DNA from: Siphonodentalium dalli | Taxonomy: Eukaryota > Mollusca > Scaphopoda > Gadilida > Siphonodentaliidae | DNA length: 64,000 nucleotides | Direction: 5' to 3' | Assembly: GCA_032622095.1 (NCBI GenBank) | Contig: CP136068.1 | Coordinates: 123,571,989 to 123,635,988 of the forward strand | Part shown: positions 36,801 to 62,729 of the stretch, one piece after another | Layout: each line of letters opens with the position of its first letter | Position numbering within the stretch: position 1 is the first letter of the stretch | Translations under genes and position numbers: made by a program | Notes under the pieces: generated by a model | The model's database searches: none | What the model was told of the DNA's origin: nothing | The model's input: the letters and a program-made list of their open reading frames with translations, nothing else

Positions 36801-39800
36801 AAAATTTGATCGAGTTATGGCCCTTAATTAGTCATTTTTCACGAATTTTTAGCTCGTTAGCGCGATAACTTCAACAAATGTCCTCCGATTTGTTTAAAAT
36901 TTGGAATAGACATACTTGCCAAGAATATTTCGGACGAGTTCGAAAACCAGCCTGGCCCGATAAAATTTGATGGAGTTATGGCCCTTAATTAGTCATTTTT
37001 CGATTTTACCTATTAATTAGTCTACCGATACTGATGCACACCAATTGGCGGTAGCCACCGAAAACGAGACACAGCATATCTGATGCCACCTCTTGTTTTA
37101 TTTATTTATTTAATTAAAATCAAAATTTTGAAAAACTAACGCCATTATAACCTCCGCCAGGGTACCCGAGTCACCACACCAAATTGAATACGGACCAGCA
37201 GTCTGGGACAAAAATCGAGACAGAGAGACATATATATACATACCCTTTTATATATAGACTCTTTTATATATAGAGATTTCCATTTTAGATGAACAGGAAT
37301 CTATTACTCAGTCTATTGAATCATCGGGAACATATGGCACAATATCATCAAATACAGGTAAGTGTCGATTGTACTCAAGCCTTGAAATAGTGTGTCTGTC
37401 ATATGCAGAATGAGGTCCCCAGAGGGTGAATCACTAAATTCACCCTCTGGGGATCTCATTCTGCTTATGCTTCATCTTCTGAGAAGTATCTTTAGTCTCA
37501 AATTAACATTGTTTTTAGTTACTTTTTCCCTTCTGTTCAGTTTCTATATACCCTAATATGCAGAAAATAAAATGCATAAACGAGGTGGCTAATGGGCAAA
37601 CATCAATCACCAACTTCAACTGGGGATTTTCAATCTGATTCTATGTCTCCCATAGCAGTTGGCATCCATTGTCCGTGCGTGCATGCATCTAGCCATGCGT
37701 GCATGTGTCCTTCTGTCCATCGGTCCATCAACAATTTCCTTTGACTCACTCTACTGGTCGCATTCCCTCATCCGATCATCACCAAACTTCATATGGATCT
37801 TCGGGTTGACCCCTAGATGGGAGCCATAAATTTTTTACGAAATTTGTTAAAAAAGATGGCCGTGAGCAGCCATTTTGGATTTCAAATTTGAATCCATTGG
37901 CACGTGTAACCTGTAGCCCACATTTATTGGAGAAATATTTTGAAAATTTGCAGGCATGTTTAGGATCACCTCTAGATGGGAGCTATCAAATTTTAGTGAT
38001 TTTCGATGAAAAACATGGCCGCAGGCAGCCATCTTGAATTTTACTCTTTGCATGACTAAATCCTTTGGCATACCAACAGACCACATTCCTCATTTCATCG
38101 CCACCAAACTTCAAATTGATCTTCGGGGTGACCTCTAGATGGGAGTCATTGATTATTTCTGAAATTTGTTAAAAAACATTGCCACCAGCAGCCATCTTGG
38201 ATTTTACTCTTTGCATGATTAAATCCTTTGGCAGACCATACAGGCCACATCCATCATCCGATCATCATCAAACTTCATACGGATCTTCGGGGTGACCTCT
38301 AGATGGGAGCCATTGATTATTTCTGAAATTCGTTAAAAACATGGCCACCAGCAGCCATCTTGGATTTCAAATTTGAATCCATCGGCACACTCTGCAGCCC
38401 GCATATATCAAAGAAATGTTTTGGAAATTTATCGGTCTGGAGCCTGGAGCCATCTTGATTTCACATTTGAATCCATTGGCACACATTTAGTGGAGAAATG
38501 AAATTAATTTCATTTACACAATAAAATCCATTTACTGAAACTTTTTTTCCCCTTCTTTATCATGCTCAGCATAAAATTATTAACGCCTCCCCAAGTTGAG
38601 CTACAGTGTCACTGACACTTTCATTATTATATACGCTTTCGTTATTGCAATTTACAATGATTGCTCTCACGCGATTGTTTTGCTGAATTAAATGTAGACA
38701 AAAACGAATCAGCTGATCGCCAACTGATAGACTCTTCTCTGTCTCATGGATATAACACTACACGTAAGCTCGATATCGCTCTGTAACATGCTAATGTGTA
38801 AGGCTATTACGAAAAGCTAATATCATTTTGGTATTAGCTCGCTGGGACAAGCGATTGATACGCCATTAATTTCCCGACTGTTTAGAGCTATTTCACTGTA
38901 GAGCATATAATAATAAGTTGTATGAGGATTATATATTTTTTCAATCTGAGTCAGTCTGAGTACTGAAATAAAAGCCAATAAAAATTACTTGTGGCAACTT
39001 TACATTCTGTGAAGCAAATCTAGAAGCTGAAATTGCTCAAGGTTAAAAACACCTTTCAGGCATATTTTATAAACTGTATGCGCTGGCAGGGTTCGCACTG
39101 CCACTTGCCAAATTTGCCAATGGCAAAAATAATTCACATTTGGCAAAAAATATTTTCATTTGGCAAAAGTTTGGCAAGTCAATATTTAATTCCTCAAGAA
39201 AGTTGAAAAATATTGGTCAATCAATATCATTCATTTCAGGAAACTCTTACAATATAATTATATTAGTTGTTTTTTTAGGTTTAGAAAAAGCTAACACCTC
39301 GGTACTAATGCATTTAATCTCATAGCATTAGTACCGACGGTTGGAGGGATTACTAGTATTTAGTGTGGTGGTAGTGTTTACATAGCTAATTCTCCTGTGA
39401 TTTGCCCTTATTATGAAGAAACCCTTCTACCATTGTATTGTTTGGTGATTGGCTTATTATACCCCCACTTTCGAAGAAAATGGGGGGTATACTGGATTGA
39501 CTGCGTCGGTCCGTCCGTCCGTCGGTCCGTCCATCACGCTTTCTCCGTCCGTGTGTCAGTCCGTCCGTCCGACATCATAACTCGAACAACTATGAACCGA
39601 TTTCAATAAATTTTTGTATGCAATCTCCTTGGGACTGCCTCTCCGCATTATGCTAATTTTTTTAAGTTACGCCTCATTTTCGACTTATATTGACTTAGAA
39701 AATTCTATCCGACTTCATAACTTTAACAAATATGAACCAATTTGAATAATGTTTTCTGTACAAGCTTCTTGTGACACCATATCGATATTATTAGTCCGAA

Positions 39801-42800
39801 TTTTTCTTTAAAGTTAAAAATCTTTTTTGTTGGGTTTATGGATAATGCGGGTTGAATTTGCCATGGTGGGGGTATGCTAGCACTCGAGTCCACACCTCTT
39901 GTTGTTATATGATTCATGCGAGTATAATTAAGTATTAACTAACTGCTTTTCTATTCATATCAAAAGTCGTTCAAACCACGAGTGTCGAAACATAAGACAT
40001 ACGGTTGCAGAAAATGATACTATCAGGGATAGCATTTGGCAAATGCTAAAATAATTTGGCAAAAAATATTCTCATTTGGCAAATTATTTGGCAAAAGTAA
40101 ATTTTGGTCCAGCGGGGACCCTGTGCGCTGGTTGTATCTGCCATCCGTAGTTTTGCATTCAGTTTTGGTTTATTGCAGCCGTGAGAACTCTTGGAGGTGT
40201 GAGCCACAGAGAAGTCACCCCAGAACCTAATGACATCAATGATGATTCTATAGAGACAGACGAGATAGACTTCTTACGAGATGCAGAACATGAAAGCGAA
40301 ATACTTAGAACCAAGGTAAATAATTTTATCATAACCAGACATATCAGGCCTTTGGACATCAACATTATACTGAGACCTTGCTTCAATTTAACATCGCTTT
40401 ATATATTAACCCTTCCATGACTTGAGATTCCTGAAAATTTGCGAAAACGCTGTGCCAATGCATTCTCTTATATATACGAGTCTCTCATTGGGAGCCTCCC
40501 ATATATAAGAGAATACATTGGCCTGACAATATTTACATTGACCTTGTAAGCCAATTCATTGTCTTATATACATGTGAGGGTCCCAATGGGAGATTCACAT
40601 ATATAAGAGAATGCACTGGCACAGGATATCTAATGCTGCACCAGCACATTACCAGTCATGAAAGGGTTATGACTTTGATATACATTTTCTTTTATTTTAT
40701 CACTGTTTAATGCTAAATGGTTTCTCCCATTCAGTTATAAAGGTATATATTGGAATGGTCTATTATTTATCTGGGTGGGGGGTTCCAGGAAAAATAAGCA
40801 GACGACAGATAATACAAGTAGAGAACAAGTCATAATTTTTGCAGGGAAATGTTCAGATAATAAGTTCAACAGATGGCTATTCAAGCCTTGAAATAGTGTG
40901 TCTGTCATTTGCAGAATGAGGTCCCCAGAGGGTGAATTTAGTGATTCTACCCTGCATAGCGGGCTAGCATCACAAAATTCACCATCTGGGGACCTCATTC
41001 TGCTTACACCTCAGCAGAATGAGGTTTCCAGAGGGTGAATTTGGTGATACTAGCCCACTATGCGGGGTAGCATCACTAAATTCACCCTCTGGGGACCTCA
41101 TTCTGCAAATGACAGACACACTATTTCAAGGCTTGTGGCTATTTATTGATCTTATTATCAGAACATTTCCAAAGGGATAACTACTAGTCAATGAGTATTT
41201 AGTATAGAAAGGGTTAGAACTCTCAGATTATTATTTCTGCGAAAGATATGACTGTGTATTAACCCTTTCATGACTGGAGCTGCTCTGGTGCTAATGTATT
41301 CTCTTACCGTATAGATGCGAGGGTCACATATAAGATAATGTATTGGCACAGGGTTCAGTGTTCATATTCTCTTCTTTAAATTTATTTCAGATTTATATTT
41401 CTGTGAAAGATTTATCAAGAAAAGGTAGAAAGAAGTTAAACAAGACATACAATCTCTATTTTTTGTGAGTCTACATAGAGCTAAAGATAAATCGAACACG
41501 CCTGTAGGCTTTGCATATTCAAAGAGAATAATCTTGCTCATCGTTTATATCGAGTTATTTGTAGAACCTCTCACTGATGGAATCAATTTTACTTTTTGTC
41601 AGGGTCCATTTCAATCTAAATAATTGGTTAAATAATTAAGATTTTATTTTATTTCAAAGTTTAGTTGTTTAGCTGTTCATCAAGTTTGAGCTATTGCCAA
41701 GGTTGCGTCCGTCCATTCGACCGTCCATTCATCTGTCTGTCACAAATTTCTGTTATCACACCCTATAGGTCACATATCTCATCCGATCGTCACCAAACTT
41801 CATATGTTTCTTCAGGGTGACCTAAAATGGGAGCCATCGAATTGTTCTGAACTTCGTTAAAAAACATGGCTGCCAGCAGCCATCTTGGATTTCAAATTTA
41901 CAGGCATGTTTAGAATCACCTCGAGATAAGAACTATAAAATTTGAATGATTTGGTCAGCATCCATTTTGGATTTTTCTCTTTTGCATGACTAAATCCTTT
42001 GGCACACCCTACGACTACATCCATCATCCTGTCATCACCTAACTTCATATGGATCTTTGGGGTGACTTTTAGATGGGAGCCATAAATGTTTTCCTAATAT
42101 CTCTGAATATCGTTGAAAAACATGGCCTTCAGTGGATATCTTGGATTTTACTTTTTGTATGACTAAATCATTCGGCACACCCTTCAGACGACATCCCTCA
42201 TCTGATTATCACCAGACTTCATATGGAACTTCGGGGTGACCTCCAGATTGGAGCCTTCAAATATTTCAAAATTTTGTTAGATTTTAATTTACATATATCT
42301 CTTTATGTTCACATCTAGTATCACTTAGACATTTATCTAATCGCTCCATTGACTGTAACCATGAAATTATCCCCTCTCCAAGTTGAGCAACAGTGTCAAT
42401 GACACTTTCATTTATGTGGTACGAAGCATGTGGTTTTGTAATCTTCAGGATAGAGTACTAGTTGTATATTCAAGCCTGAAATTAGCGTGTCTGACATTTG
42501 CAGAATGAGGTCCCCAGATGGTGAATTTAGTGACGCTATCCCGTATGGCAGGCTAGCATACCAATTTTACCCTCTGGGGACCTCATTCTGCTTAGGCCTC
42601 ATCTTTTGGGAAGTTTCTATAATTCCAAATTAACATTTTTTTTTTTTGTTGAGTTTCTGCTGAGTTCTATATCCCCTAATTTGCAGAAGATAAAATGCAT
42701 AATCAAGATGACTAATGAGTGAACATTACCAACTTCAACTGGGGAACTTCAATCTGATCCTAGGTCTCCCATAGCAGTTGAGGCCTAAGCAGAAAGAGGT

Positions 42801-51800: not shown

Positions 51801-54800
51801 AACTCATAAAAACTATTCAATCTTCATCATAAAAAATATTTTTGGAACATGAACATCTTTGGGCATACCTCCCGCAAAAATCTCACGGATTGACATTTTC
51901 AAAACTTAACAGGTCTGGTTGGTACTCATCTCATACTGTATTATAAAGCACATGACAGGGCCAAGCACATATTAAACACAAATGGTGCCTGCTCCCCCTT
52001 GCTCCAGTGTTACTGGCCATGTTTAATTACAGTCAAGAATGAGTGCCAACACCAGAAATCATATCTCATGAACTTTTCATTCTCTGTTTGAAATATGAAA
52101 TAGTTATTATATTTAAGAATTGAATCGCCTCTTTTATGCCATTTTTATATAAAAAAAAATCCCTAGCAGAGACCCCTTCTAATATTAATGCTCTTGGATG
52201 GTGCTTTATATTATGTAGGAAGTTGCCCCCACCCCTTTGTTATATCTCGATCTACCACTATTTTTTGATGATTTATACTTGAAGCCAGTTATAGTGTTTT
52301 AGGTTGATATTCCTGTCTCTTTTACGGACAATTCCTTTATCATTTCAGGGGAGGTTAGCCATATTAATACTGGGAAACCTGTTTAACTGGTTCATGTAAG
52401 TAATTCAGAATTAATTGTGATCAACTGTTAGACATGACTTCTCATTGATTTAAAAGTAATGGGCCCATTTTATTATCCGAAATGAATTAAATTTAATGAT
52501 GATTTCTTGTTAAAAGCCCATTCTACTGAGATTCAAAGTTGTGGTGCAGGGGTATTTTGGAATCTGCTGTAAGTCCGTGTTTAGTGGATATAAATATTGA
52601 CAGAACTTGACAGAACTCAAAATCCTTCTATTTTTCGTCATTTGTTTTGAAACTTAGTGCACATATTATCCTACCCATGCAACCTGTAATTTTGATATTA
52701 TAGCAGAGTGATTGAATTTTTTTAATGCAGATATATATAGCAACCTTATTTTTGGACAAGAGTACCTGTGTTGTGTGTCTTGAGTTCTGTGGAACAGTCA
52801 CGCTTCAAATTGTTTTTGATTTGTTATACCCTCACTTTCGAAGACAATGGAGGGTATACTGGATTGACTGCGTCTGTCCTCACACTTCACACTTTCTCCC
52901 TCTGTGTGTCCATCCGTCCGTCCGACCTCATAACTCGAACAACTATAAACCGATTTCAATAATATTTTGTATGCAATCTCCTTAGGACCGCCTCTCCGCA
53001 TGATGCTAATTGCGGTGCGGTCCGACTTTCATTTTTTAAGTTACGCCTTACTTTTCGACTTATTTTGACTTAGAAAATTCTGTCCGACTTAATAACTTTA
53101 ACAAATATGAACCGATTTCAATATTTGTTGGTATACATGCTTCTCACAACACCCTCTCTACATGGTGCGGCTCAGGGTTGGCTCGGACTGTTTTTCCTAA
53201 CATTACACTTCATTTTTGACTTAGAAAATTTGGGGGGGTTTTTTTGTGGATGTTTTTTTCCCTGGAGTTGTGTGCCTTCTTAGCAGAAGTTTGGTTTGAC
53301 TGACGAAACACTCAACAAAAGCCATCTTAGATGTTAAGGTTGCGTTTAATTTTCTACCCTTTTTTGGGTTTCTGCAATCATTCGAACAAATATGAACCAA
53401 TTTGAATATTTGTTTCTGTACAAGCTTCTTGCGACACCATATCGATATTGTTAATCCAAATTTTTCTTTAAAGTTAAAAATCTTTTTTGTTGGGTTTACG
53501 GATAATGCGGGTTGAATTTGCCACGGTGGGCGGTATGCTAGCACACGAGTGCACACCTCTTGTTCTATTTAGCATACTTTGCCCAATTATAAACAGCCAA
53601 TCACAAAGAAGTTAGTATAATGCACAAGTGATCTGGAAATTCTTGTAGGTAAACTTACTCACCTGGAATTTTCAAAACATTTTCTTACTGAATTATGATC
53701 CCCAATTTGATTGTACTCATTATCATGTTTGTTGTCAGAGGTTATTATCTCATCTGTTGAAATGTAGAATTGCAAAACAAGTAAGCCATTCATTTTCAAC
53801 TTTGATTTTATAGGGCCATATATGGAGCAGTTACCAGACCAGTGGATTTTGCGACATATTTCCTAGCCATATTCATTGGAAATTTGGGTCTTTACACAAT
53901 ATTCTACATACTGATGAAGGTGAGTTGAGTATAGTGATTCCACTTGGCCAGATTACAATTATACTATCATCTATCGGCAGGTCATGCAAATTGATGGGTA
54001 GTCATCACTGGTCATGACAATATATGGGTTCCCATACCTACCATATCTATAAATACTAGTATGAAAGCCCTACATATTCATATATACTTCTGTAAACCGG
54101 TGTCCTGACAAATTTACCTCCTTAATTCGGCGGTAAAAGAGTTAAAGTGGCAATCCCGTTTTCAATTTTGATTTACTTGTTTATGTGTACCCATGCCATA
54201 GTATGGTACACATAGTGTTGATGTTTGGATTTACCACTCATCGTTCTTCTGTCTATCTGTTTGCTGTCTGGGGCCAGAATCCTCATCATATTATAGCTGT
54301 ATAAACATTGTATAGATAACACTTTTGTAAGGTCTAAACCAGGGTATGGACTGTTCACTTTGAGAATTTGTGTTATTACATTTGTCTATACATGTACTTC
54401 TTTATTACATGACATTATACTCTATAATTCATCATCAAAACTCTAGATTATGATTCCGATCATAGCTATTATCTATCGCCAAGGGAAGGGTTAAACATCT
54501 GCTGATTGTGATCGGCCTCTCGTTTAAATTATATTTTTACTCGTTTTGAATGATACGCCCATTTGGCATAATTATGTCAAGATGTTTTGTTTTAAATTGA
54601 TCAAAGATGACGCTTGGACTGTAAAACAATGGAAATTTGACTCATTGTCTTGAGAATAAGGATTTAGGTGTTGGGATTTGACAGGTTTGGCATTATCATA
54701 GAATTCATTTAAAACAGATAGATTAATTTACAATATGGCATATATTCCAATATCAAACTTATCATCCACATTAGGAAACTCTGCGTTATATCGCAACTCA

Positions 54801-57464
54801 CCTGTGTGAACTGTTTAACACAAGACAACAGATTTAACACTTTCTGCTAAACCCTATTTAATAGCGAACTTTGATTCTAGGTATTGGAAAGTTAATGCAA
54901 AATCAATGGAATCATTGTATGATAATGAGATGTGTTTTTTTGGTGATCCTATTTACGTGATCCTAGCCCGCTGTGTGATGTAGCATCACTAAATTCACCC
55001 TCTGGGGACCTCATTTTTATAAGTGTCCAGCACCATATTATAAGGCCTGGGAATTATGCTGCATACTGGATTGTTTGCCAGTTGTCTATTTCTCGACGTA
55101 AGCGCGAGAACTTAAACAAATGTAATCTAGTTTTGACCAAATTCTGTTTGTTTCTACTTAAACACAGATTTGTTAACCCACAACTTGACCACAGCATCTC
55201 CAATGTATACCTCTTTTTTACAGTTGTTGAATAAGGAGAAGATATTGCCATTAACAATCCTGTGCCTTATTCTGGCCTCTGTGACATGGGGAACTTCCTT
55301 CTATTTCTTCTTCCAAGGCCTCACATCATGGCAGGTAAGCACTTTGTTGTAATTAACCCATTTTGCGGATGTAAAATAAATTTAAAAAAAAAAAAAAATT
55401 CAATTATTTTGCTCGAAAGTGTTTCTGTTTTATTCATTGTTTAGAAACATTTTCAACTTCATCTCAGACATTTTCCAGTAATATTTTATTGATGAACAAC
55501 TAACTAATTGCAATGGCAGGTGTGTGAATTGTTTACTATTAACACAAGAAACTTGTGAATTGATTGTTTGAACAAAAGATCTTATGAAATCATCTTAACC
55601 CATTTCGGCTATTATCTTTCAACCTTGGAAGCACTAGGGGTGGATACAGGCCCCATTTCCAAAGAGGTAATTTTTCCCAATTTCTAGTCCCAAATTTCCC
55701 AAAAAGAGTGCTTTTAGTACGAGGACCTTAAGATTTATTTTAAAATTAGCCAATTATAAATGATTCATTTATGGGTTGGTACACATAACTCAAACAGATT
55801 AGTTTTTATACGCCCTTTTGAAAAAATGGTCATATTATGTAATGAGTCCGTCCGTGCGTCGTTCCGTGCATTTGGCCGTCTGTCCGTCCATTCGTTTACA
55901 TTTTTGCTTTCTGATCGATAACTCCAGTTTGGATTATTTGATCTGAACCAAAGTTGGTGTGTGTATTTCCCAGCTAAAGATACAGGCAAATTTTGAATAC
56001 GGGTTTCGTCCAATTATTTTTACATGAGTTACGGCCATTTTTCAACTTAGAATTTGACTGTCGGTTAACATTTTTGGTTTCTGACAGATAATTCCAGTTT
56101 GGATTATTTGATTGAAACAAAGTTGGTATTTGTATTTCCCAGCTAAAACTACAGGCCAAGTTCGAATATAGGTTCTGTCTAATTATTTTCACATGAGTTA
56201 CAGCCATTTTTCAACTTTTTTCAAATTTGACCACATTTTGGCATTGATATTAGGGGTATATCAGATATTCTTCAAATGTAAGCTCGAATTATTATTTTGT
56301 TCTGTGGTAGTACAATTCAAAATGGCTGAATGGCATATTTTGCATGCCATTTTGAATCTTTTGTTGTTGAAAATTCCCAATTGAATTGGACCTCTGTTGC
56401 ATTAATTTTTCCCAACTACAGGGGCCTGGTACCTAATGCCATTCAGGATGGGATAATCAATGCAATTTTTTTCAAATTTTTGTAGAATAGCAGAAAATGG
56501 CAATAACTGTGTTTCTCAGAAAATGTTTCGTTAATTCTGTTTCTCTCACCAACATATTTATTTAATCATTACACAGGTCTCTCCGGCATCATCAAGGAAA
56601 GGCAACAAACCTTGTATTCTGCTGAACTTCTACGACGCCCATGATGTTTGGCATTTCCTATCTGCGATCAGTCTCTTCTTGTCATTCCTGGTGAGTGGCA
56701 GTCTTTGTTAACCCCTCTCTATACTAATGGATTCTCCCATTCAGTTATAAAAGTAAACATTGGAACAGTTTATTATTCTTTTGGAGGGGTGTTCAGTTAA
56801 TGAAAGCAAATGGCAGACATGCAGATTAATGACATGAAAATACAGATGAAGTTCAAATTTGAGTTTGTCTGCCATTCCTGATGTAGTTGTGCCCCATTTG
56901 GACTTAGAAATTGCTGATTATTTTGATGATGTCTGGTAAATTCAGCTATTGTTATTTGATTGTCGTAAGAATATATATTTGCTCTGGTGTCTGAAATATA
57001 TGTTAACAACATACAGTAATGCTCTAATTAATCAACTCCTTAACTACAGCAGAATTATGGGTAACTTTTCAGGATTTAGTCGGAAATATGGCTTGTTGCC
57101 ATTCATTGGAAAGCTCTTGGGGAGAGCTTTCCGATGAATGGCAATAAGCCATATTTCCGACTAAATCCTGAAAAGTTACCCATAATTCTGCTGTAGTTAA
57201 GGAGTCGATTAATTAGAGCATTACTGTAGACTATTGGTACAAAGTTTTGTTTAGTGATTCTTCCCAAAATCAAATTTAGCCAGCGCTAAAATAAAGCCAC
57301 CTTTTTCGGTTGACATGTGGCCTAGCGGCCTTTTATTATTTAGCAGCATATGATCATCAAAGTGGAGGAATAATTTTAAAAGAGATATTTATCTTTTGCA
57401 GATTTACTTGACTCTGGATGATGATTTAGCTATGAAGAAGCGAGACCAAATTAGTGTGTTCTGA
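12705..57464 (+). CDS. SIDT: SID-1 transmembrane family gene (SIDT1/SIDT2-like), 21 exons, 5' end missing
   Basis: This is a multi-pass membrane protein of the SID-1 family, whose members take up or move double-stranded RNA (C. elegans SID-1) or act in lysosomal RNA/lipid handling (vertebrate SIDT1/2). The 21 exons listed separately join in one frame: 721 residues, all with AG acceptors and GT donors. Order: extracellular domain (ERTLC-like [27 protein letters not shown]), first helix ([18 protein letters not shown]), acidic serine-rich cytoplasmic loop, then the polytopic core ([80 protein letters not shown]). The Ser of SNIGY and the His residues of CYHVCPN and HDVWH match the metal site proposed for the CREST superfamily. 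Vertebrate homologues have about 830 residues, so roughly 100 N-terminal residues including the signal peptide are not accounted for. Introns are packed with mobile elements. SIDT1 versus SIDT2 cannot be decided, since invertebrates usually have their own set. Confidence 0.96.
13095..13985. mobile_element. Non-autonomous hAT-like element, TSD taagttca
   Basis: Termini CAGGGACC...GGTCCCTG and a perfect 8-bp target duplication, taagttca at 13087-13094 and 13986-13993. Subterminal GGGCGAAGT / ACTTCGCCC words occur several times at both ends, as expected of transposase-binding repeats. No ORF of note. It is inserted in a TTAA-type MITE. Confidence 0.88.
13591..13680. repeat. Short tandem repeat, ~36-bp unit x3
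   Basis: GTATTCATAAGC at 13591, 13627 and 13662, inside the 13095 hAT-like element. Confidence 0.75.
14006..14490 (+). mobile_element. Pearl-like element, CCCCCGAAAA family
   Basis: Head hairpin GTCCCCCGAAAAAAAT / AATTTTTGGGGGAC, (GTCCGTCC)n, two units of about 190 bp with ACTCCTCCTACAG and GATATTTGAAACTTCAG, end GTTTGGGGGACAC. Inserted in a CTATACT-family MITE. Confidence 0.82.
14632..14661. repeat. (AAT)n microsatellite
   Basis: Uninterrupted AAT/ATA run inside a MITE remnant. Confidence 0.9.
15318..18367 (+). mobile_element. Complex pearl-like element with 161-bp tandem units, ACTCGACTTAT family
   Basis: Head hairpin CGAGTTTTTTTCCAAAACTCG, a (GGCG)n microsatellite, then 161-bp units (ATGGCCCTTAATTAG at 15681, 15842, 16003), ending GATGCCACCTCTTGT. 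A block of about 1035-1039 bp, including the microsatellite and a spacer starting TGCCAAGCCCAGATGAATAC (16130, 17169), is itself duplicated in tandem. It fills most of the intron between SIDT exons A and B. Confidence 0.9.
18643..18787 (+). CDS. SIDT: SIDT exon B, extracellular domain
   Basis: Acceptor tttcag, donor gtaagt. Joins exon A in phase 2 (codon AG|T, Ser) to read [20 protein letters not shown]...[21 protein letters not shown]. This corresponds to the [20 protein letters not shown] stretch of vertebrate SIDT proteins. Ends in phase 0. Confidence 0.95.
19305..19666. mobile_element. Probable hAT-like MITE with TAGTGATGGG ends
   Basis: Left TAGTGATGGGCAGTT and right AACCACCCATCACTA are inverted repeats. 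Flanks cccgacat and gccaacat match at 6 of 8 bases. 362 bp, non-coding. TTTCGGTTT words occur near the left end. Confidence 0.7.
21127..21210 (+). CDS. SIDT: SIDT exon C, CPVYDL motif
   Basis: Acceptor tttttacag, donor gtatgc; 28 codons in phase 0. Reads [28 protein letters not shown], nearly residue-for-residue the family signature CPVYDL...YQTMTKKAAITVQ. Confidence 0.97.
21470..21660. mobile_element. Partial relative of the 26383 MITE
   Basis: Sequence from GCCAAGGAGAAGCCCTCAAC through the CTCGGCCTTGTGTTATCAGG segment matches, in reverse orientation, the interior and flank of 26340-26690. Only one end is present. Confidence 0.75.
23370..24130. repeat. Degenerate repeat array
   Basis: Related segments with CCTTCTATT...ATATCC, then ATTGCGCA and (C)TGCCA, occur near 23393-23510, 23534-23665 and 23897-24045. 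Spacing is irregular (about 140 and 360 bp). Probably an old dispersed or tandem repeat. Confidence 0.55.
24500..25990. repeat. GC-rich degenerate repeat cluster
   Basis: Two block types recur. CCCATTACGAGNGTNGGTCTTGTCCCCCTGG is at about 24538 and 25237. ACCAGTCTTACCTCGGG through GGAGATTCGGGCAACCAATC is at about 25010 and 25819. Open stretches on both strands exist but none gives a recognisable protein. It may be remains of a retroelement or of a GC-rich transposon; unassigned. Confidence 0.55.
26383..26736. mobile_element. MITE with 58-bp terminal inverted repeats
   Basis: The left end 26383-26440 and right end 26679-26736 are reverse complements over about 58 bp (ATATAATTTTTTAAAGTAAA inward to GAACTAT). 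The interior has no coding capacity. An inverted, partial relative is at about 21470-21660, sharing the AAGCCCTCAACTGAACTATA end and the CTCGCATGAGTCTCGC interior. Confidence 0.85.
27371..27503 (+). CDS. SIDT: SIDT exon D, end of extracellular domain
   Basis: Acceptor ctcttttcag, donor gtaaat. Reads [24 protein letters not shown] ... [12 protein letters not shown], matching the FPSNSFYVVVVVKTEDQAC segment before the first membrane helix. Ends in phase 1. Confidence 0.94.
27551..27784. mobile_element. piggyBac-like MITE, CTATACT family
   Basis: TTAACCCTTTCTATACTG at the left and AGTATAGAGAGGGTTAA at the right. A second, inverted fragment of the same family abuts it (27785-27863). Confidence 0.85.
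28482..28935. mobile_element. piggyBac-like MITE with 69-bp internal hairpin
   Basis: TTAACCCTTTGAGTGCC ... GGGCACTCAAAGGGTTAA borders. Contains the recurring palindrome at 28533-28601 (GCCAATGCATTCTC... ...GAGAATGCATTGGC). The interior near the right end has GGGCCGAT words. Confidence 0.88.
29360..29459 (+). CDS. SIDT: SIDT exon E, first transmembrane helix
   Basis: Acceptor attctag, donor gtgagt. Phase 1 in, phase 2 out. Reads [33 protein letters not shown], a hydrophobic helix followed by basic residues, equivalent to GGMLFCLGIFLSFYLLTVLL in the family. Confidence 0.95.
29471..29734. mobile_element. piggyBac-like MITE with two internal hairpins
   Basis: TTAACCCTTTCATGATGGGA at the left, CTTGATAGGGTTAA at the right. 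Palindromes at 29521-29590 and 29618-29686 share the GAATGCATTGGC-type stem and TATATATGCGAG core. It begins 11 bases after SIDT exon E. Confidence 0.88.
29760..32200. other. Intron without recognised elements
   Basis: Part of the intron between SIDT exons E and F. A run of G at about 30217 and AT-rich sequence; I see no gene and no repeat with defined ends. Confidence 0.5.
32210..32710 (+). repeat. Dispersed repeat, inverted relative to 43085-43500
   Basis: The segment with TTCCAGAATTCTGATGAATA and TATTTATCAACCTATTTCGA is found in reverse complement at 43085-43500 with moderate divergence. Both copies lie in SIDT introns. Confidence 0.85.
33015..33052 (+). CDS. SIDT: SIDT exon F (short, probable), cytoplasmic loop
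   Basis: A 38-bp candidate between gtgtag and gtaagt. Reads [14 protein letters not shown] when joined in phase with exons E and G. The loop is poorly conserved, so support comes from splice sites and phase, not similarity. Skipping it would break the frame (phase 2 to phase 1), which favours it. Confidence 0.65.
34418..35670. mobile_element. Non-autonomous hAT-like element, TSD ggccacag
   Basis: Termini CAGGCCTCAGC and its complement (CAGGTCTCAGC), flanked by a perfect 8-bp duplication ggccacag (34410-34417 and 35671-35678). Subterminal GAGACTTC / GCGAAGTC words recall the 13095 element. About 1.25 kb, no transposase visible. Confidence 0.87.
35835..37096 (+). mobile_element. Pearl-like element with 161-bp tandem units, ACTCGACTTAT family
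   Basis: Complete copy: CGAGTTTTTTTCCAAAACTCG head, short GGCG microsatellite, units at ATGGCCC 36174, 36334, 36495, 36656, 36817 and 36978 (160 or 161 bp apart), end GATGCCACCTCTTGT. It ends about 190 bp before SIDT exon G. Confidence 0.92.
37289..37357 (+). CDS. SIDT: SIDT exon G, acidic cytoplasmic loop
   Basis: Acceptor cattttag, donor gtaagt; 69 bp, phase 1 both sides. Reads [20 protein letters not shown] plus SNT, resembling the Ser/Gly/Tyr-rich stretch (YNYGSFENGS) of vertebrate SIDT2. As a phase-preserving exon it could be optional. Confidence 0.82.
37660..38625 (+). mobile_element. Pearl-like element, AAACTTCATATGGATCT family
   Basis: CCGTGCGTGCATGCATC and GTCCATC words, then repeated units with CATCACCAAACTTCATATGG and GGGTGACCTCTAGATGGGAG spaced by about 164 bp or twice that, end GAGCTACAGTGTCACTGACA. 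It runs up to within about 75 bp of SIDT exon H. Confidence 0.8.
38698..38763 (+). CDS. SIDT: SIDT exon H, cytoplasmic loop
   Basis: Acceptor aatgtag, donor gtaagc; 66 bp, phase 1 both sides. Reads [20 protein letters not shown] then TT. Like exon G it is acidic and serine-rich and could be skipped without a frame change. Confidence 0.78.
39087..40123. mobile_element. Non-autonomous hAT-like element, TSD tgcgctgg, carrying a nested pearl-like element
   Basis: Termini CAGGGTTCGCACTG / CAGGGTCCCCGCTG with a perfect 8-bp duplication tgcgctgg (39079-39086, 40124-40131). Both ends carry arrays of TTTGGCAAA words. The 39457-39902 pearl-like element sits inside. A one-ended relative with TTGCCAAAT words starts near 59616 and is copied at about 62349. 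Confidence 0.9.
39457..39902 (+). mobile_element. Pearl-like element, ATACCCCCACTTTCG family
   Basis: Head hairpin ATACCCCCACTTTCGAAG / TGGGGGGTAT, (GTCCGTCC)n, two units starting CATAACT...ACAA(C/A)TATGAACC about 140 bp apart, end CACACCTCTTGTT. Nested in the 39087 hAT-like element. Confidence 0.88.
40179..40315 (+). CDS. SIDT: SIDT exon I, acidic loop before the core
   Basis: Acceptor tattgcag, donor gtaaat. Reads [20 protein letters not shown] ... [24 protein letters not shown]. The cluster of Asp/Glu ahead of a basic RTK matches the [24 protein letters not shown] region of SIDT2. Ends in phase 0. Confidence 0.9.
40406..40670. mobile_element. piggyBac-like MITE with two internal hairpins
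   Basis: TTAACCCTTCCATGACTTGA at the left, CAGTCATGAAAGGGTTA at the right, so the right TTAA is damaged. Palindromes at 40453-40522 and 40544-40620. Close downstream of SIDT exon I. Partial copies: 32920-32983, 41258-41352 and 43921-43966. Confidence 0.85.
40700..41217. mobile_element. CTATACT-family MITE interrupted by a CAAGCC MITE
   Basis: Left part with CCATTCAGTTATAAAGGTAT and TTCAGATAATAAGTTCAAC; right part TTAGTATAGAAAGGGTTA. The 40882-41135 element and its 8-bp duplication lie inside. Confidence 0.8.
40882..41135. mobile_element. CAAGCC-ended MITE (GAATGAGGTCCCC family), TSD tggctatt
   Basis: Ends CAAGCCTTGAAATAGTGTGT and its complement, with a perfect 8-bp duplication tggctatt (40874-40881, 41136-41143). 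Interior repeats of GCAGAATGAGGTCCCCAGAG in both orientations form smaller hairpins. It interrupts a TTAA-type MITE. Confidence 0.9.
41391..41464 (+). CDS. SIDT: SIDT exon J, basic juxtamembrane segment
   Basis: Acceptor tttatttcag, donor gtgagt. Reads [20 protein letters not shown] plus NLYF, equivalent to [24 protein letters not shown]. Phase 2 out. Confidence 0.93.
41669..42425 (+). mobile_element. Pearl-like element, AAACTTCATATGGATCT family
   Basis: Same family: GTCCGTCCATTCGACCGTCC microsatellite, units with TCACCAAACTTCATATG and GGGTGACCT, end GAGCAACAGTGTCAATGACA. Confidence 0.8.
42471..42876. mobile_element. CAAGCC-ended MITE, longer copy
   Basis: Same family as 40882-41135, with ends CAAGCCTG...CCGGCTTG and flanks tgtatatt / tgtatgtt (7 of 8). 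The interior includes a segment (AAGATAAAATGCATAAT) missing from the short copy. Confidence 0.85.
43085..43500 (-). repeat. Dispersed repeat, inverted relative to 32210-32710
   Basis: Reverse-complement partner of 32210-32710 (TCGAAATAGGTTGATAAATA, TATTCATCGGAATTCTGGAA). The two could pair in the SIDT pre-mRNA. Confidence 0.85.
43682..43897 (+). CDS. SIDT: SIDT exon K, membrane core with CYYNF and SNIGY signature
   Basis: Acceptor ttcttgtag, donor gtatgt. The largest exon found. Reads [21 protein letters not shown], then [40 protein letters not shown] and FLIIVGRR. It holds two membrane helices and the conserved Ser of SN(I/L)GY, a proposed metal-site residue of CREST-type proteins. Phase 2 in and out. 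Confidence 0.98.
43975..44330 (+). repeat. Dispersed repeat, inverted relative to 10020-10390
   Basis: TACTTGTTCGGGTGCGTGAA ... CATCGTCTGAACTATGCTCA ... TTGAACAAGATTATTCTCCA. Pairs with 10020-10390 at long distance in opposite orientation. Confidence 0.8.
45005..45203. mobile_element. Decayed double-hairpin MITE
   Basis: Half of the first hairpin (about 45013-45060) and a complete second one (about 45086-45155), followed by the family right end AGCTCCAGTCATGGAAGTG. Flanks are degraded. Confidence 0.75.
45440..45690 (+). mobile_element. Decayed pearl-like repeat
   Basis: CATCCATCCATTTTAGCATC words, then a single unit with AACTCCAGTTCCTATTATA and GATGGAGCTATGGCC, the same layout as the other families. 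No clear ends. Similar weak remnants are at 7300-7475 (AGAGTTATGACCC) and 46560-46780 (opposite strand). Confidence 0.5.
45943..45991 (+). CDS. SIDT: SIDT exon L, short inter-helix loop
   Basis: Acceptor ttattgcag, donor gtaagt. Reads [17 protein letters not shown], filling the position of REINHNRALLRNDLYALE in vertebrates. Phase 2 in, phase 0 out. Confidence 0.9.
45999..46155. mobile_element. CTATACT-family MITE fragments
   Basis: TTTTAACCCATTCTACACTAAATGG and AAAAATGTTCAG mark a partial copy. Other partial copies are at 42905-43080, 43538-43660, 47900-47968, 56708-56800, and about 58118-58318 with its duplicate at about 60851-61051. Several lie within 200 bp of SIDT exons. Confidence 0.7.
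46197..46314 (+). CDS. SIDT: SIDT exon M, GLFYAMG and CYHVCPNY motif
   Basis: Acceptor atttccag, donor gtgagt. Reads [39 protein letters not shown]. The His of CYHVCPNY is invariant in the family and is a likely metal ligand. Phase 1 out. Confidence 0.98.
47070..47223. repeat. 154-bp inverted repeat in a SIDT intron
   Basis: Arms 47070-47147 and about 47153-47223 are complementary with only scattered mismatches, with a loop of a few bases. Located between exons M and N. It has no terminal motifs of the MITE families here, so it looks like a local inverted duplication. Confidence 0.9.
47286..47422 (+). CDS. SIDT: SIDT exon N, membrane core
   Basis: Acceptor ttttcag, donor gtatgc. The split codon gives Asp; reads [46 protein letters not shown]. 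Matches [25 protein letters not shown]. Phase 0 out. Confidence 0.98.
47535..47803 (-). mobile_element. tRNA-derived SINE
   Basis: Read on the minus strand from 47803, it begins GTAGCCCAGTGGTTAGAGTA (A-box TAGCCCAGTGG), followed about 40 bases later by GAGTTCGCGCC (B-box-like). A tRNA-unrelated body follows to about 47535. It could belong to the molluscan V-SINE-type families, but I cannot compare it here. Located in the SIDT intron after exon N. Confidence 0.85.
47968..48715 (+). mobile_element. Pearl-like element, AAACTTCATATGGATCT family, 5'-truncated
   Basis: Starts mid-unit (TTCGGGGTGACCTCTAGATG) directly after a MITE fragment, keeps several units, and ends AGCTACAGTGTCATTGCCAC. No microsatellite head remains. 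Confidence 0.75.
48880..48988 (+). CDS. SIDT: SIDT exon O, helix with YLGRWK
   Basis: Acceptor attttgcag, donor gtaagt. Reads [36 protein letters not shown]. Matches FWIVFSIIHI...QLYYMGRWKL. Phase 1 out. Confidence 0.97.
49053..49391. mobile_element. CAAGCC-family MITE, diverged copies and fragments
   Basis: CAGGCTTCC...TTTGCAGAATGAGGTCCC followed by the family interior. Further fragments of the family are at 12891-12975, 18895-18950, about 20530-20632, 37376-37640 and 54958-55052, recognised by GAATGAGGTCCCC or its complement. Confidence 0.75.
49646..49719 (+). CDS. SIDT: SIDT exon P, loop with conserved Cys
   Basis: Acceptor atttccag, donor gtgagt. Reads [20 protein letters not shown] plus KPLHM, corresponding to [24 protein letters not shown]. 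Phase 0 out. Confidence 0.95.
49925..50716 (+). mobile_element. Pearl-like element with ~157-bp units, CAGATATCTCCACCAC family
   Basis: CATCCATTCCGTCTGTCTGG head remnant, then five units marked by GCAGATATCTC at about 49974, 50129, 50286 and 50444, plus a diverged one near 50589 (spacing 145-158), end GCAACCTCTTGTTT. Confidence 0.82.
50841..51917. mobile_element. Non-autonomous hAT-like element, TSD gttggtac
   Basis: Termini CAGAGCTGTTAAGTT / CAGACCTGTTAAGTT with a perfect 8-bp duplication gttggtac (50833-50840, 51918-51925). Subterminal CACGGATT / TCCGTGAG words at both ends. About 1.08 kb without a credible gene. Confidence 0.9.
52349..52395 (+). CDS. SIDT: SIDT exon Q, start of a helix
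   Basis: Acceptor catttcag, donor gtaagt. Reads [15 protein letters not shown] with a split Met; corresponds to DRMVLLVMGNVINWS. Phase 2 out. Confidence 0.94.
52826..53567 (+). mobile_element. Pearl-like element, ATACCCCCACTTTCG family
   Basis: Head ATACCCTCACTTTCGAAG / TGGAGGGTAT, (GTCCGTCC)n, three or more units with ATGAACC, end CACACCTCTTGTT. In the intron after SIDT exon Q. Confidence 0.87.
53814..53919 (+). CDS. SIDT: SIDT exon [12 protein letters not shown] helix
   Basis: Acceptor gattttatag, donor gtgagt. Reads [20 protein letters not shown] then [16 protein letters not shown]; corresponds to AAYGLIMRPNDFASYLLAI. Phase 0 out. Confidence 0.97.
54175..54480 (+). mobile_element. Pearl-like remnant, TGTACCATACATGG family
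   Basis: CTTGTTTATGTGTACCCATG ... GGTACACATAGTG head palindrome, the same head as at 9281, followed by CTGTCTATCTG words and decayed sequence. Confidence 0.6.
55224..55334 (+). CDS. SIDT: SIDT exon [10 protein letters not shown] helix
   Basis: Acceptor cttttttacag, donor gtaagc; 37 codons in phase 0. Reads [37 protein letters not shown]; corresponds to SVVWGFALFFFFQGLSTWQ. Confidence 0.98.
55805..56225 (+). mobile_element. Pearl-like element, ATACGCCCTTTTG family
   Basis: Weak head palindrome (ATACGCCC ... GTCATATTAT), GTCCGTCC-type words, two units about 170 bp apart with CCAGTTTGGATTATTTGAT. Confidence 0.75.
56577..56690 (+). CDS. SIDT: SIDT exon T, HDVWHFLS catalytic-type motif
   Basis: Acceptor ttacacag, donor gtgagt; 38 codons in phase 0. 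Reads [38 protein letters not shown]. The HDxWHFLS motif is the most conserved block of the family and supplies two His residues of the proposed metal site. Confidence 0.98.
57013..57228. repeat. 216-bp inverted repeat (hairpin) in last SIDT intron
   Basis: Two arms of about 105 bp, with few mismatches, around a 5-base loop near 57118-57122. It lies between exons T and U. The left boundary of the 2733-bp duplication falls in the loop. Confidence 0.93.
57402..57464 (+). CDS. SIDT: SIDT terminal exon U with stop codon
   Basis: Acceptor cttttgcag. Reads [20 protein letters not shown] then TGA, the canonical C-terminus of the family (LTLDDDLDTVQRDKIYVF). It lies wholly inside the first copy of the 2733-bp tandem duplication, so an identical exon exists at 60135-60197. 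Confidence 0.98.
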   Translation: MYLTLDDDLAMKKRDQISVF

Positions 57465-57542
57465 TGTGTATGGTGCTGGATTGTGAATTGGAGTTCAGAC
57501 AATGATTCCATGAATTTAACTGGTGAATGCAGCTTGATTGAG

Positions 57543-57548
57543 AATAAA
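57543..57548 (+). terminator. Candidate poly(A) signal AATAAA of SIDT
   Basis: AATAAA lies about 80 bp after the stop codon and is followed by a T-rich stretch. An identical copy is at 60276-60281 in the second duplication unit. A short 3' UTR is implied if it is used. Confidence 0.55.
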
Positions 57549-57685
57549 ATCACTATTTTCTTTTTACTCAAATGAGCCATCATTCTTCATGATTGGCAAG
57601 AACAGTCTGTGTAAACATAAACTGTCATACTGACAGCGTAAACATAAACTCATACTGACATACTCAGTCTATCTTAGTCTCACAG

Positions 57686-58117
57686 TAAAAGGTACTCAAT
57701 CTGATTCGATGGTCCCCATATAATCAGGTTCCAACAAGAAAATTTTTAGAAATGCCACTTCAGTTATCAGAATCGATTAATTGCTCAAAAATAATGCTAA
57801 TCACTTTCAACTGTAGTATAAAATTGTCCTAAACATGTTATTTGTTCGATGAAATTTGGCCTTATTATCAACAGATAGCCTTTTGATTTTAGAGTTATCC
57901 ATATTCATCCGCAATTTGGTCTGAGACCGTCGGCTCTTTGACTTTTACTGGGCCACTAATAATTCTCGAGGGTGAAAAATAATAGATTTAAAAAATCGAT
58001 ATCTAATAACTATGAGCTTTGGTAGGTGGGTTCCACGACTCAAATCAAATATTTTTTTACCCCCAAATCCAAATAAATAGTAATTGAGGGGCGCCTAATC
58101 GGATTATGCATCTTTAA
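57686..58117. mobile_element. Relative of the 10501 fold-back
   Basis: Begins AAAGGTACTCAATCTGATTC and ends with the same terminal ~120 bp as the right arm of 10501-10915 (CGATATCTAAT, TGAGCTTTG, TTTTTACCCCCAA, CATCTTTAA). The interior is not palindromic, so it may represent the longer parental form. Repeated at about 60419-60850. Confidence 0.7.
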
Positions 58118-58314
58118 TAAGTTCAGCAAATGCTCATATCTGAACATTTTTCACCTATGAGTAGGAAATCTTTCTTGTATTATCATTTCGTATGTCCGTC
58201 GTCTGCGCATGCAAATATCCTGAACATCCTTCCAGTTGAGTAATAGATCATTCCAATGTATCATTTTATAAATTATTGTGAGAATCCATTTAGTAAACAA
58301 AGGGTTAACCCTTT

Positions 58315-58771
58315 ACCCAACAGAACGGCCCTGTTCCAATGCATTCTCTTATATATGCGAGTCGACCATAGGTCGCCTTGCATATATAAGAGAATGTATT
58401 GGCTTAACACATATTAAAAATGATAAAATTGTCAAAGAATGTAGATAAATATTATAAAAATTGTTAAAAAATGTAAGAAAAAATTATAAAATTGTTAAAG
58501 AATGTAAGAAAAAAATGGTAAAAAGTGTTAAAAAAAAGTATTTTTTTAGGCCAATGCATTCTCTTATATATGCGAGGCGACCTATGGTCGACTCGCGTAT
58601 ATAAGAGAATGCATTGGCACAGGGCATAACTGTAACCATCACAATGTGGCCAATGAATCGGTTCCAATGATATCCATATTTGTATGGTGTTATTGAGACA
58701 GACCGAAGATATTTTAGGCTGTTGAAGCTTTATTTGGGCGTTTTTGGCCGTTTTGTTGGGTAAAGGGTTAA
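58315..58771. mobile_element. piggyBac-like MITE with two hairpins
   Basis: TTAACCCTTTACCCAACAGA ... TGTTGGGTAAAGGGTTAA. Hairpins at 58336-58403 and 58550-58618. Its left TTAA is shared with the right end of a neighbouring CTATACT-family copy. An identical copy lies in the duplicated unit at 61048-61504. Confidence 0.9.
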
Positions 58772-59850
58772 CGGACCAATAATACCACAACATCATGTTC
58801 GTCGGCTGATATTCTCACTCCCTGAAAAAGTTAAATTAACGACCTGCGAATATGATGTCATAATTTTCTTGGTTTGTTCACGATACTCCGATATGGTTAG
58901 TTGCAGATCAAAAATACTCAGGAACGTTGATTTGCATACACCCAATAGTATAGGTGCATCCACATTTCATTTGACACGCCATGAATCTCATAGTTCTTGG
59001 CAGATTGCTTTGAAACTTCAAACTATTTGATTCAAATCTTAAAGGCCCATTTAATTTTCAAGTCACGGACTATTTTTTTATAGTGCTTTGATAGACGGTT
59101 TTAATAACAATTTGTGACATAAAATATGATTAAAATACTATATTTCGTCACTGTTTGGAATGTCTGTTTAAGAAGGTGCCCATAAAGTACTAGAAAATAG
59201 CTGAAATCATAGAAAACATTTCCCCCAGAATGCAACATAATACAAATTAAGATATAGAGTTATCCCCTTCCATTGAAAATAATAGACTTTGCAGTACTGT
59301 CCAGATGAAACTTGAGCACAGAAAAACATCCGCACCTCCACAAAACAAGATGTTCAAACTTTATTACACCGTATAAATTGATAATACAATGTTTTGGTGC
59401 TTCCTCTTTCAAATGGTATATAATATGGTATATATTTAATATAATGTGATCTGGGGGGTTAGAAATTTAAGTGGGCCTTTAATTCTTGGTCAGTGCTAGA
59501 TTCTTTATCCACACCTGCCCGAGATATTGAAGATTTTCATTCAATGTTCCCAATATTTTGCTAAAAACTTACTTTGTAAATTTTAGTTTACAGTGCCTTT
59601 GATATGGTCCCGCTTCCAGGGTTGGCGCTGGAGCGGCTGGACCCAAATTTTCTGTTGCCAAATATTTTGCCAAATGAATTTTTTTTGTGCCAAATTTCAA
59701 AATGATTTGCCAAATTTAATTCAGGGTATATGATTGGGTAAATTGAAGGAAATTCTCATATTTTTATTGTCCTAGGATATCTTTCCCCCCACCCTGGATA
59801 TCTTCCCCCCCATGTACGACTAAGAAATAATTTCACTCATATGATATCGT

Positions 59851-62583
59851 TGGGGAGAGCTTTCCGATGAATGGCAATAAGCCATATTTCCGACTAAATC
59901 CTGAAAAGTTACCCATAATTCTGCTGTAGTTAAGGAGTCGATTAATTAGAGCATTACTGTAGACTATTGGTACAAAGTTTTGTTTAGTGATTCTTCCCAA
60001 AATCAAATTTAGCCAGCGCTAAAATAAAGCCACCTTTTTCGGTTGACATGTGGCCTAGCGGCCTTTTATTATTTAGCAGCATATGATCATCAAAGTGGAG
60101 GAATAATTTTAAAAGAGATATTTATCTTTTGCAGATTTACTTGACTCTGGATGATGATTTAGCTATGAAGAAGCGAGACCAAATTAGTGTGTTCTGATGT
60201 GTATGGTGCTGGATTGTGAATTGGAGTTCAGACAATGATTCCATGAATTTAACTGGTGAATGCAGCTTGATTGAGAATAAAATCACTATTTTCTTTTTAC
60301 TCAAATGAGCCATCATTCTTCATGATTGGCAAGAACAGTCTGTGTAAACATAAACTGTCATACTGACAGCGTAAACATAAACTCATACTGACATACTCAG
60401 TCTATCTTAGTCTCACAGTAAAAGGTACTCAATCTGATTCGATGGTCCCCATATAATCAGGTTCCAACAACAAAATTTTTAGAAATGCCACTTCAGTTAT
60501 CAGAATCGATTAATTGCTCAAAAATAATGCTAATCACTTTCAACTGTAGTATAAAATTGTCCTAAACATGTTATTTGTTCGATGAAATTTGGCCTTATTA
60601 TCAACAGATAGCCTTTTGATTTTAGAGTTATCCATATTCATCCGCAATTTGGTCTGAGACCGTCGGCTCTTTGACTTTTACTGGGCCACTAATAATTCTC
60701 GAGGGTGAAAAATAATAGATTTAAAAAATCGATATCTAATAACTATGAGCTTTGGTAGGTGGGTTCCACGACTCAAATCAAATATTTTTTTACCCCCAAA
60801 TCCAAATAAATAGTAATTGAGGGGCGCCTAATCGGATTATGCATCTTTAATAAGTTCAGCAAATGCTCATATCTGAACATTTTTCACCTATGAGTAGGAA
60901 ATCTTTCTTGTATTATCATTTCGTATGTCCGTCGTCTGCGCATGCAAATATCCTGAACATCCTTCCAGTTGAGTAATAGATCATTCCAATGTATCATTTT
61001 ATAAATTATTGTGAGAATCCATTTAGTAAACAAAGGGTTAACCCTTTACCCAACAGAACGGCCCTGTTCCAATGCATTCTCTTATATATGCGAGTCGACC
61101 ATAGGTCGCCTTGCATATATAAGAGAATGTATTGGCTTAACACATATTAAAAATGATAAAATTGTCAAAGAATGTAGATAAATATTATAAAAATTGTTAA
61201 AAAATGTAAGAAAAAATTATAAAATTGTTAAAGAATGTAAGAAAAAAATGGTAAAAAGTGTTAAAAAAAAGTATTTTTTTAGGCCAATGCATTCTCTTAT
61301 ATATGCGAGGCGACCTATGGTCGACTCGCGTATATAAGAGAATGCATTGGCACAGGGCATAACTGTAACCATCACAATGTGGCCAATGAATCGGTTCCAA
61401 TGATATCCATATTTGTATGGTGTTATTGAGACAGACCGAAGATATTTTAGGCTGTTGAAGCTTTATTTGGGCGTTTTTGGCCGTTTTGTTGGGTAAAGGG
61501 TTAACGGACCAATAATACCACAACATCATGTTCGTCGGCTGATATTCTCACTCCCTGAAAAAGTTAAATTAACGACCTGCGAATATGATGTCATAATTTT
61601 CTTGGTTTGTTCACGATACTCCGATATGGTTAGTTGCAGATCAAAAATACTCAGGAACGTTGATTTGCATACACCCAATAGTATAGGTGCATCCACATTT
61701 CATTTGACACGCCATGAATCTCATAGTTCTTGGCAGATTGCTTTGAAACTTCAAACTATTTGATTCAAATCTTAAAGGCCCATTTAATTTTCAAGTCACG
61801 GACTATTTTTTTATAGTGCTTTGATAGACGGTTTTAATAACAATTTGTGACATAAAATATGATTAAAATACTATATTTCGTCACTGTTTGGAATGTCTGT
61901 TTAAGAAGGTGCCCATAAAGTACTAGAAAATAGCTGAAATCATAGAAAACATTTCCCCCAGAATGCAACATAATACAAATTAAGATATAGAGTTATCCCC
62001 TTCCATTGAAAATAATAGACTTTGCAGTACTGTCCAGATGAAACTTGAGCACAGAAAAACATCCGCACCTCCACAAAACAAGATGTTCAAACTTTATTAC
62101 ACCGTATAAATTGATAATACAATGTTTTGGTGCTTCCTCTTTCAAATGGTATATAATATGGTATATATTTAATATAATGTGATCTGGGGGGTTAGAAATT
62201 TAAGTGGGCCTTTAATTCTTGGTCAGTGCTAGATTCTTTATCCACACCTGCCCGAGATATTGAAGATTTTCATTCAATGTTCCCAATATTTTGCTAAAAA
62301 CTTACTTTGTAAATTTTAGTTTACAGTGCCTTTGATATGGTCCCGCTTCCAGGGTTGGCGCTGGAGCGGCTGGACCCAAATTTTCTGTTGCCAAATATTT
62401 TGCCAAATGAATTTTTTTTGTGCCAAATTTCAAAATGATTTGCCAAATTTAATTCAGGGTATATGATTGGGTAAATTGAAGGAAATTCTCATATTTTTAT
62501 TGTCCTAGGATATCTTTCCCCCCACCCTGGATATCTTCCCCCCCATGTACGACTAAGAAATAATTTCACTCATATGATATCGT
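59851..62583. repeat. Tandem duplication, unit 2 (2733 bp)
   Basis: Direct repeat of 57118-59850. It starts with the right arm of the palindrome but lacks the left arm, so the palindrome pre-dated the duplication. It ends where sequence switches to the unique TTGGTTCTGAAATGG stretch. Confidence 0.97.
60135..60197 (+). pseudogene. Duplicate copy of the SIDT terminal exon
   Basis: Same bases as the terminal exon, including the cttttgcag acceptor and TGA, carried by the second unit of the tandem duplication. It can only be used as an alternative last exon encoding the same 20 residues. If spliced in, it would change the 3' UTR context but not the protein. It could be an assembly artefact. Confidence 0.9.
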
Positions 62584-62729
62584 TTGGTTCTGAAATGGCC
62601 AGAAAAATGTTTTTGGAGATTAAAAAAAAAAAAGTGACAAAATTAGTTTTTTCACGAATTTGATTTCTGTTCATGAAATGACCAGATTTTTTTTTTTTTT
62701 TAATTCAAATTTTTTCTTTTCTTTCAAAC

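Follow-up and report, generated by a model that had tools for sequence, protein, structure and literature searches.

The last coding exon of an animal SID-1-family gene lies within a near-perfect direct tandem duplication, the left breakpoint of which falls at the tip of a long intronic palindrome. We favour, with moderate confidence, a recent and real duplication that began with a cut at the hairpin tip of this palindrome and was completed by end joining or a template switch.

Extent and content of the duplication

Sequence comparison within the window (the whole 64-kb stretch of DNA analysed) gave a maximal match of 2735 bp, pairing 57117-59851 with 59850-62584 at an offset of 2733 bp with no indels. 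As the first-pass annotation had proposed, the two units (Table 1) are identical save for one change, which we place at one of 2733 positions. This offset ranks first among exact 60-mers repeated inside the window (n = 2616); the next, 1039 (n = 389) and 1196 (n = 349), both lie within a region of 161-bp repeats. A duplicate pair of such length and identity is far beyond chance. The two direct copies differ by a substitution but by no indel, so the five homopolymers listed in the unit agree in length between them.

Table 1. Features of the duplicated region (window coordinates).
Feature	Position	Strand	Remarks
Exon T (next-to-last SID-1-family exon), coding part	56574..56690	+	3' end placed at donor CTG/GTGAGT, read from sequence
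Left arm of intronic palindrome (putative foldback MITE)	57012..57117	+	106 bp
Palindrome loop, TGGGG	57118..57122	.	5 nt
Right arm of palindrome	57123..57228	-	Complementary to left arm at 103/106 positions
Unit 1 of tandem duplication	57118..59850	+	2733 bp
Last coding exon through stop codon, unit 1	57402..57464	+	Acceptor and spliced reading frame
Sole inter-unit difference	57738 = G, 60471 = C		3' of stop codon
Junction	59850..59851	.	TT common to both breakpoints; spanning 40-mer found once on window + strand
Unit 2 of tandem duplication	59851..62583	+	2733 bp, one substitution
Unit-2 right arm of palindrome	59856..59961	-	No left arm adjoining
Last coding exon copy, unit 2	60135..60197	+	Identical to unit-1 exon

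Each unit holds the acceptor, the last coding exon and downstream sequence of the gene. The family assignment comes from the region of exon T, which matched Pfam PF13965 (profile positions 536-575 of 594, aligned to residues 14-53 of window:56535-56708; E = 3.1e-18) and SIDT2 in the PDB (E = 3.6e-13). Both last-exon positions given previously, 57402 and 60135, were recovered; splicing to them from exon T (introns of 711 nt to the near and 3444 nt to the far acceptor) yields the same predicted protein C terminus, and the sequence bears out the earlier description of the two last exons and their poly(A) signals as equivalent. The duplication would therefore be expected to be close to silent, with no change of product. 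RNA reads that connect exon T with 60135 would be ambiguous inside the exon, since its two copies are identical.

The palindrome and the breakpoints

The left breakpoint coincides with the left edge of the loop, between 57116/57117 and 57118/57119 and 1.5-3.5 bp from the palindrome centre; the shared TT, with which the maximal match reaches 2735 bp, leaves the edge uncertain by 2 bp. The edge, previously placed in the five-base loop, is at the start of the loop, and the arms begin at 57012 (57013 in the earlier annotation). The presence of the right arm alone in unit 2, also noted before, would follow from any simple tandem duplication whose left breakpoint fell in the loop. On folding, the palindrome forms a single stem (DNA MFE -118.3 kcal/mol, versus a shuffle mean of -17.9). 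Its arms differ at 3/106 positions and the units at 1/2733 (Fisher p = 2e-4), so that the palindrome probably came first and the duplication later. It is possibly an older foldback MITE within the intron; the TA on its outer flanks, which is suggestive only, may represent a target-site duplication.

Two palindromes with arms longer than 100 nt and a loop of at most 60 nt occur in the 64 kb, and one of them carries the left edge; 15 inverted repeats were found in the window, or 13 after the two unit-2 copies are dropped. Taken post hoc, the probability that either of two breakpoints would lie 3.5 bp or less from a centre is about 5e-4 (two palindromes) to 3e-3 (13 inverted repeats). At the second breakpoint (59850), folding revealed no hairpin (z = 0.92; 168 of 200 shuffled sequences folded just as well). 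Microhomology of at least 2 bp arises at 17.7% of random joins, and the junction therefore favours no particular repair route.

Proposed origin and comparison with known systems

A hairpin-tip cut plus a second break is the simplest account of the duplication. The palindromic hairpin in the last intron would be cut at its tip. End joining, with no more than 2 bp of microhomology, would then link the exposed right-hand end (57118 onward) to a second broken end at 59850, for which the sister chromatid is the simplest location; alternatively, a template switch into the single-stranded loop may have made the duplication. We infer that the cut was made at the tip in vivo, that a sister chromatid took part and that the assembly is correct at the array. 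The first-pass annotation had pointed to a fold-back or template-switch event, or to an assembly artefact at a hairpin. The junction does lie at the palindrome tip, and either a palindrome-linked event or an artefact may be the cause. Fold-back synthesis, however, yields inverted copies; the units form a direct repeat, and fold-back is not needed as a cause.

The second unit may instead have been created by an assembly error within one haplotype. A figure legend on PATRR8 states that sequencing coverage can fall at the palindrome centre (PMC4940405), so an artefact would sit at the same place as a true breakpoint, and some false duplications are reported to have gapless joins that arose through incorrect gap filling (PMC9516828). 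That the units are misplaced alleles is unlikely at a heterozygosity of at least 0.5%, and not unlikely at about 0.1%.

If real, the duplication is of a known kind, and its edge is unusually neat. It differs from the translocations in PMC4940405, in which both partners are palindromes, in that its second breakpoint has no hairpin; and, unlike the PATRRs, its palindrome is not enriched in AT (62.7%, versus 62.4% for the window).

Duplicated units and their junction

Unit 1 and unit 2 of the tandem duplication differ at one of 2733 positions and by no indels in a self-comparison of the window shifted by 2733 bp, which bears out the near-identity described in the first-pass annotation. At the sole difference 57738 carries G and 60471 carries C (AAGAAAA versus AACAAAA). 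The maximal match covers 57117-59851 (2735 bp); the two breakpoints therefore have TT in common, which leaves three possible positions for the cut. On the + strand, the window contains a single occurrence of a 40-mer spanning the junction and of each left-flank and right-flank word tested. Among repeated exact 60-mers in the window 2733 is the most frequent offset, followed by 1039 and 1196, both of which map to the 161-bp-repeat region at 15.5-18.3 kb. As assembled, the arrangement is that of a tandem segmental duplication, with two adjoining direct copies and a single novel junction.

As was also noticed at first, the left edge lies in the 5-nt loop of a near-perfect palindrome, 1.5-3.5 bp from its centre at 57120, and unit 2 carries the right arm only. 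A plain tandem duplication whose left breakpoint falls in the loop would give just this arrangement, the palindrome being complete at the start of unit 1 and reduced to its right arm in unit 2. We considered and rejected the unit as a transposable element with ends of its own: its first and last 20 nt form no terminal inverted repeat (at the three possible edges 1, 4 and 9 of 20 positions pair), and the 10 nt outside the array show no evident target-site duplication.

Coordinates of the duplication, the gene parts and the repeats in the window
Feature	Position	Structure	Flanks or remarks
Unit 1	57118-59850	2733 bp	whole palindrome at its start
Unit 2	59851-62583	2733 bp	right half of palindrome
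Palindrome in last intron	57012-57228	arms 57012-57117 and 57123-57228, loop 57118-57122	
SID-1_RNA_chan match	53806-53925		E 1.8e-9
SID-1_RNA_chan match	56535-56708		E 3.1e-18
Last coding exon	57402-57464	20 codons and stop	copy at 60135
Second long palindrome	40882-41135	arms 123 nt, loop 8	exact 8-bp direct repeat TGGCTATT on both flanks
Spaced inverted repeat	10501-10915	arms 168 nt, 94% complementary, 79-nt spacer	TTAA on both sides after 4-nt trim
161-bp-repeat arrays	15518-18261 and 36039-37001		
Inverted repeat inside unit	58328-58625	80-nt arms	copy at 61061-61358

The palindrome, the gene and other repeats

The arms of the 217-bp palindrome pair at 103 of 106 positions around the loop, and its single-stranded DNA folds as one stem of -118.3 kcal/mol, compared with a shuffle mean of -17.9. 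A trim of 2 nt leaves CAGTAATG...CATTACTG between TA and TA, with ends CAGT...ACTG. Because TA is its own complement, and could be the end of the arm itself, the flanks are only suggestive of a target-site duplication. Long inverted repeats, CAGT...ACTG ends and TA flanks are features that we take to recall foldback MITEs of the Tc1/mariner kind; the window palindrome differs in having no second copy in the window by BLAST, save for the right half in unit 2. Its sequence is suggestive of a putative Tc1/mariner-like foldback MITE. Two palindrome patterns gave no matches in viral contigs and one gave none in prokaryote contigs, where none would be expected in either case.

A scan of the window for inverted repeats with a loop of at most 60 nt returned 15, of which two are unit-2 copies and were dropped; of the 13 then counted, some of them nested, two have arms of more than 100 nt. 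The palindrome at 40882-41135 has the flanks presumably expected of a hAT-like foldback MITE, and a sequence with a similar end is seen directly before and within 37400-37469. The third long inverted repeat, at 10501-10915, has a spacer beyond the loop limit of the scan; its TTAA flanks, which we assume to be as in piggyBac-like MITEs, are only suggestive because TTAA is its own complement. The array at 15518-18261 consists of three blocks in which exact stretches of up to 425 bp recur at offsets of 1035, 1039 and 1196, and it, too, could be of recent origin or difficult to assemble; a search of viral contigs with one pattern from the 161-bp arrays found no matches, a miss that carries little weight. 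The arms of the inverted repeat inside the unit match sites near 28.5, 29.6, 40.5 and 45.1 kb, and it likely belongs to a separate MITE family.

The Pfam domain SID-1_RNA_chan, found above its gathering score in two of six translated pieces, places the gene in the SID-1/SIDT family, and the piece at 56535-56708 also matches solved SIDT1, SIDT2 and SID-1 chains (16 distinct sequences). The end of exon T, the next-to-last exon, was placed at 56690, directly before GTGAGT, and on this placement it stops at profile position 574 of 594. The next acceptor, ttttgcag, ends at 57401 and opens a last exon that fits the profile length left over and whose sequence presumably resembles vertebrate SIDT C termini. 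Its copy in unit 2 is identical in sequence and reads the same predicted protein, the 284 nt preceding position 60135 are identical in both copies, and the predicted introns would be 711 nt to the near exon and 3444 nt to the far one. AATAAA first occurs 79 nt after the stop codon, and the same set of five AATAAA/ATTAAA sites is present in both units; the earlier claim of two equivalent last exons and poly(A) signals therefore stands at the level of sequence. We infer that splicing uses the near last exon and leaves the second copy mostly as downstream DNA. The predicted C terminus is the same whether the array is real or an artefact. In the pre-mRNA of this dsRNA-channel-family gene, 57012-57228 would form a near-perfect 106-bp hairpin (RNA fold -184.0 kcal/mol).

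Real array or assembly artefact

The 64-kb window contains no N, so there is no gap between the copies, and this argues for a real array, as do the cleanness of the junction and the fact that the units differ by nothing but a substitution. The typical raw long-read error is an indel, and the nature of the single difference speaks against a same-haplotype artefact (homotype false duplication), in which one unit was written twice, its overlapping ends (start at 57118, end at 59850) being joined end to end and not merged where reads or contigs stopped at the tip of the hairpin. We regard such an artefact as possible, if somewhat unlikely. The near-zero divergence suits it, and the hairpin tip is a likely artefact site because coverage is low at the palindrome centre in a case illustrated in a figure legend (PMC4940405). 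Excerpts of a survey of false duplications (PMC9516828) document adjoining ones of genes and exons and state that false duplications are mostly separated by gaps and sometimes joined through incorrect gap filling. Near-identical adjoining copies within a gene are common to those homotype cases and to ours, whereas the copies in the window have no assembly gap between them; this counts against the artefact, although a gap can also be closed by wrong filling. The same excerpts also describe a tandem duplication that is real, allele-specific and at haploid depth (PMC9516828).

A haplotype artefact (heterotype false duplication), with two alleles of one unit set side by side, seems to us extremely improbable, even though heterotype exceeds homotype duplication in five of the six assemblies tabulated in PMC9516828. 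Reported heterozygosity ranges from 0.11% to 3.20% in bivalves (PMC10729735, in part) and is about 3% in a pearl oyster (PMC9646362, in part). Under assumed rates, which include bivalve figures and may not be those of this species, 0.5-3% heterozygosity predicts 14-82 differences between the units (P of at most one, <=1.7e-5), while 0.11% predicts about three (P = 0.20). The case against misplaced alleles depends on the species because of this last value.

The arms of the palindrome diverge at 3 of 106 positions (95% interval 0.6-8%) and the units at 1 of 2733 (0.001-0.2%; Fisher p = 2e-4). Because the arms diverge more than the units, the palindrome is probably older than the duplication, barring homogenization of the units by gene conversion or a copy made by the assembler.

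Proposed breakage at the palindrome tip and known systems

We judge a real, palindrome-linked tandem duplication to be the probable origin of the array. The palindrome tip would have been cleaved and then joined to an unrelated break, either by end joining or by template switching, and the event is of a known, ordinary kind with an unusually neat edge. The link to the palindrome made in the first-pass annotation keeps its support in the edge at the tip, while its fold-back step would not be required for a direct repeat. Fold-back or snap-back synthesis of unit 2 is rejected, the units being co-oriented and the arms more diverged than the units.

Coincidence of a real duplication with an uninvolved palindrome is very unlikely in our view. 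With two breakpoints, the chance that one falls within 3.5 bp of a centre is about 5e-4 for two long palindromes to 3e-3 for 13 inverted repeats, a post hoc figure for which the palindromes were counted after the case was seen. On the other side, the right breakpoint lies in unstructured sequence: the 217 nt around it fold no better than shuffles (z 0.92), and the scan with loops of at most 60 nt found no inverted repeat there. The shared TT is no more than chance would give either, microhomology of at least 2 bp arising in 17.7% of 20,000 random joins.

A real array would be a clean tandem duplication of very recent origin, one edge of which lies at the tip of a hairpin that probably derives from a transposon, and enrichment of duplication edges at the centres of palindromic MITEs would become a question that can be counted genome-wide. 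A wider reading, which we put forward as speculation and consider distinctly unlikely, is that palindromic foldback MITEs in this animal act as standing break points whose tip cleavage repeatedly seeds kilobase tandem duplications from the MITE centre; part of the population would here carry a dsRNA-channel-family gene with its last exon and 3' region doubled and as yet unchanged. Should the array instead be an artefact, it would show that false duplications without a gap can arise at hairpins within genes.

Our literature search, judged by titles and the beginnings of abstracts, found no account of tandem duplication at a MITE tip. In PMC7999016 'tandem duplication' occurs once, within a reference title, and in PMC11707139 the terms for palindrome centre and tandem duplication refer to a binding site and a protein domain that was engineered. 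Excerpts on the transmissible cancer of Mya arenaria (PMC10663159) describe somatic tandem duplications whose modal size is near 11 kb; we draw no link from these to the window. According to excerpts of PMC7999016, palindromes carry greater risk when their arms are longer and more similar and the spacer is short or absent. The closest comparison is with human palindrome-mediated (PATRR) translocations, in which the break lies at the centre and tip cleavage with end joining is implicated (PMC4940405, in part). Those translocations join two palindromic partners, whereas only one breakpoint is palindromic here; the product here lies on a single chromosome, as a direct tandem duplication, and the palindrome is no AT-richer than the window (62.7% versus 62.4%). 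What the two would share is a near-perfect palindrome broken at its centre, followed by end joining.
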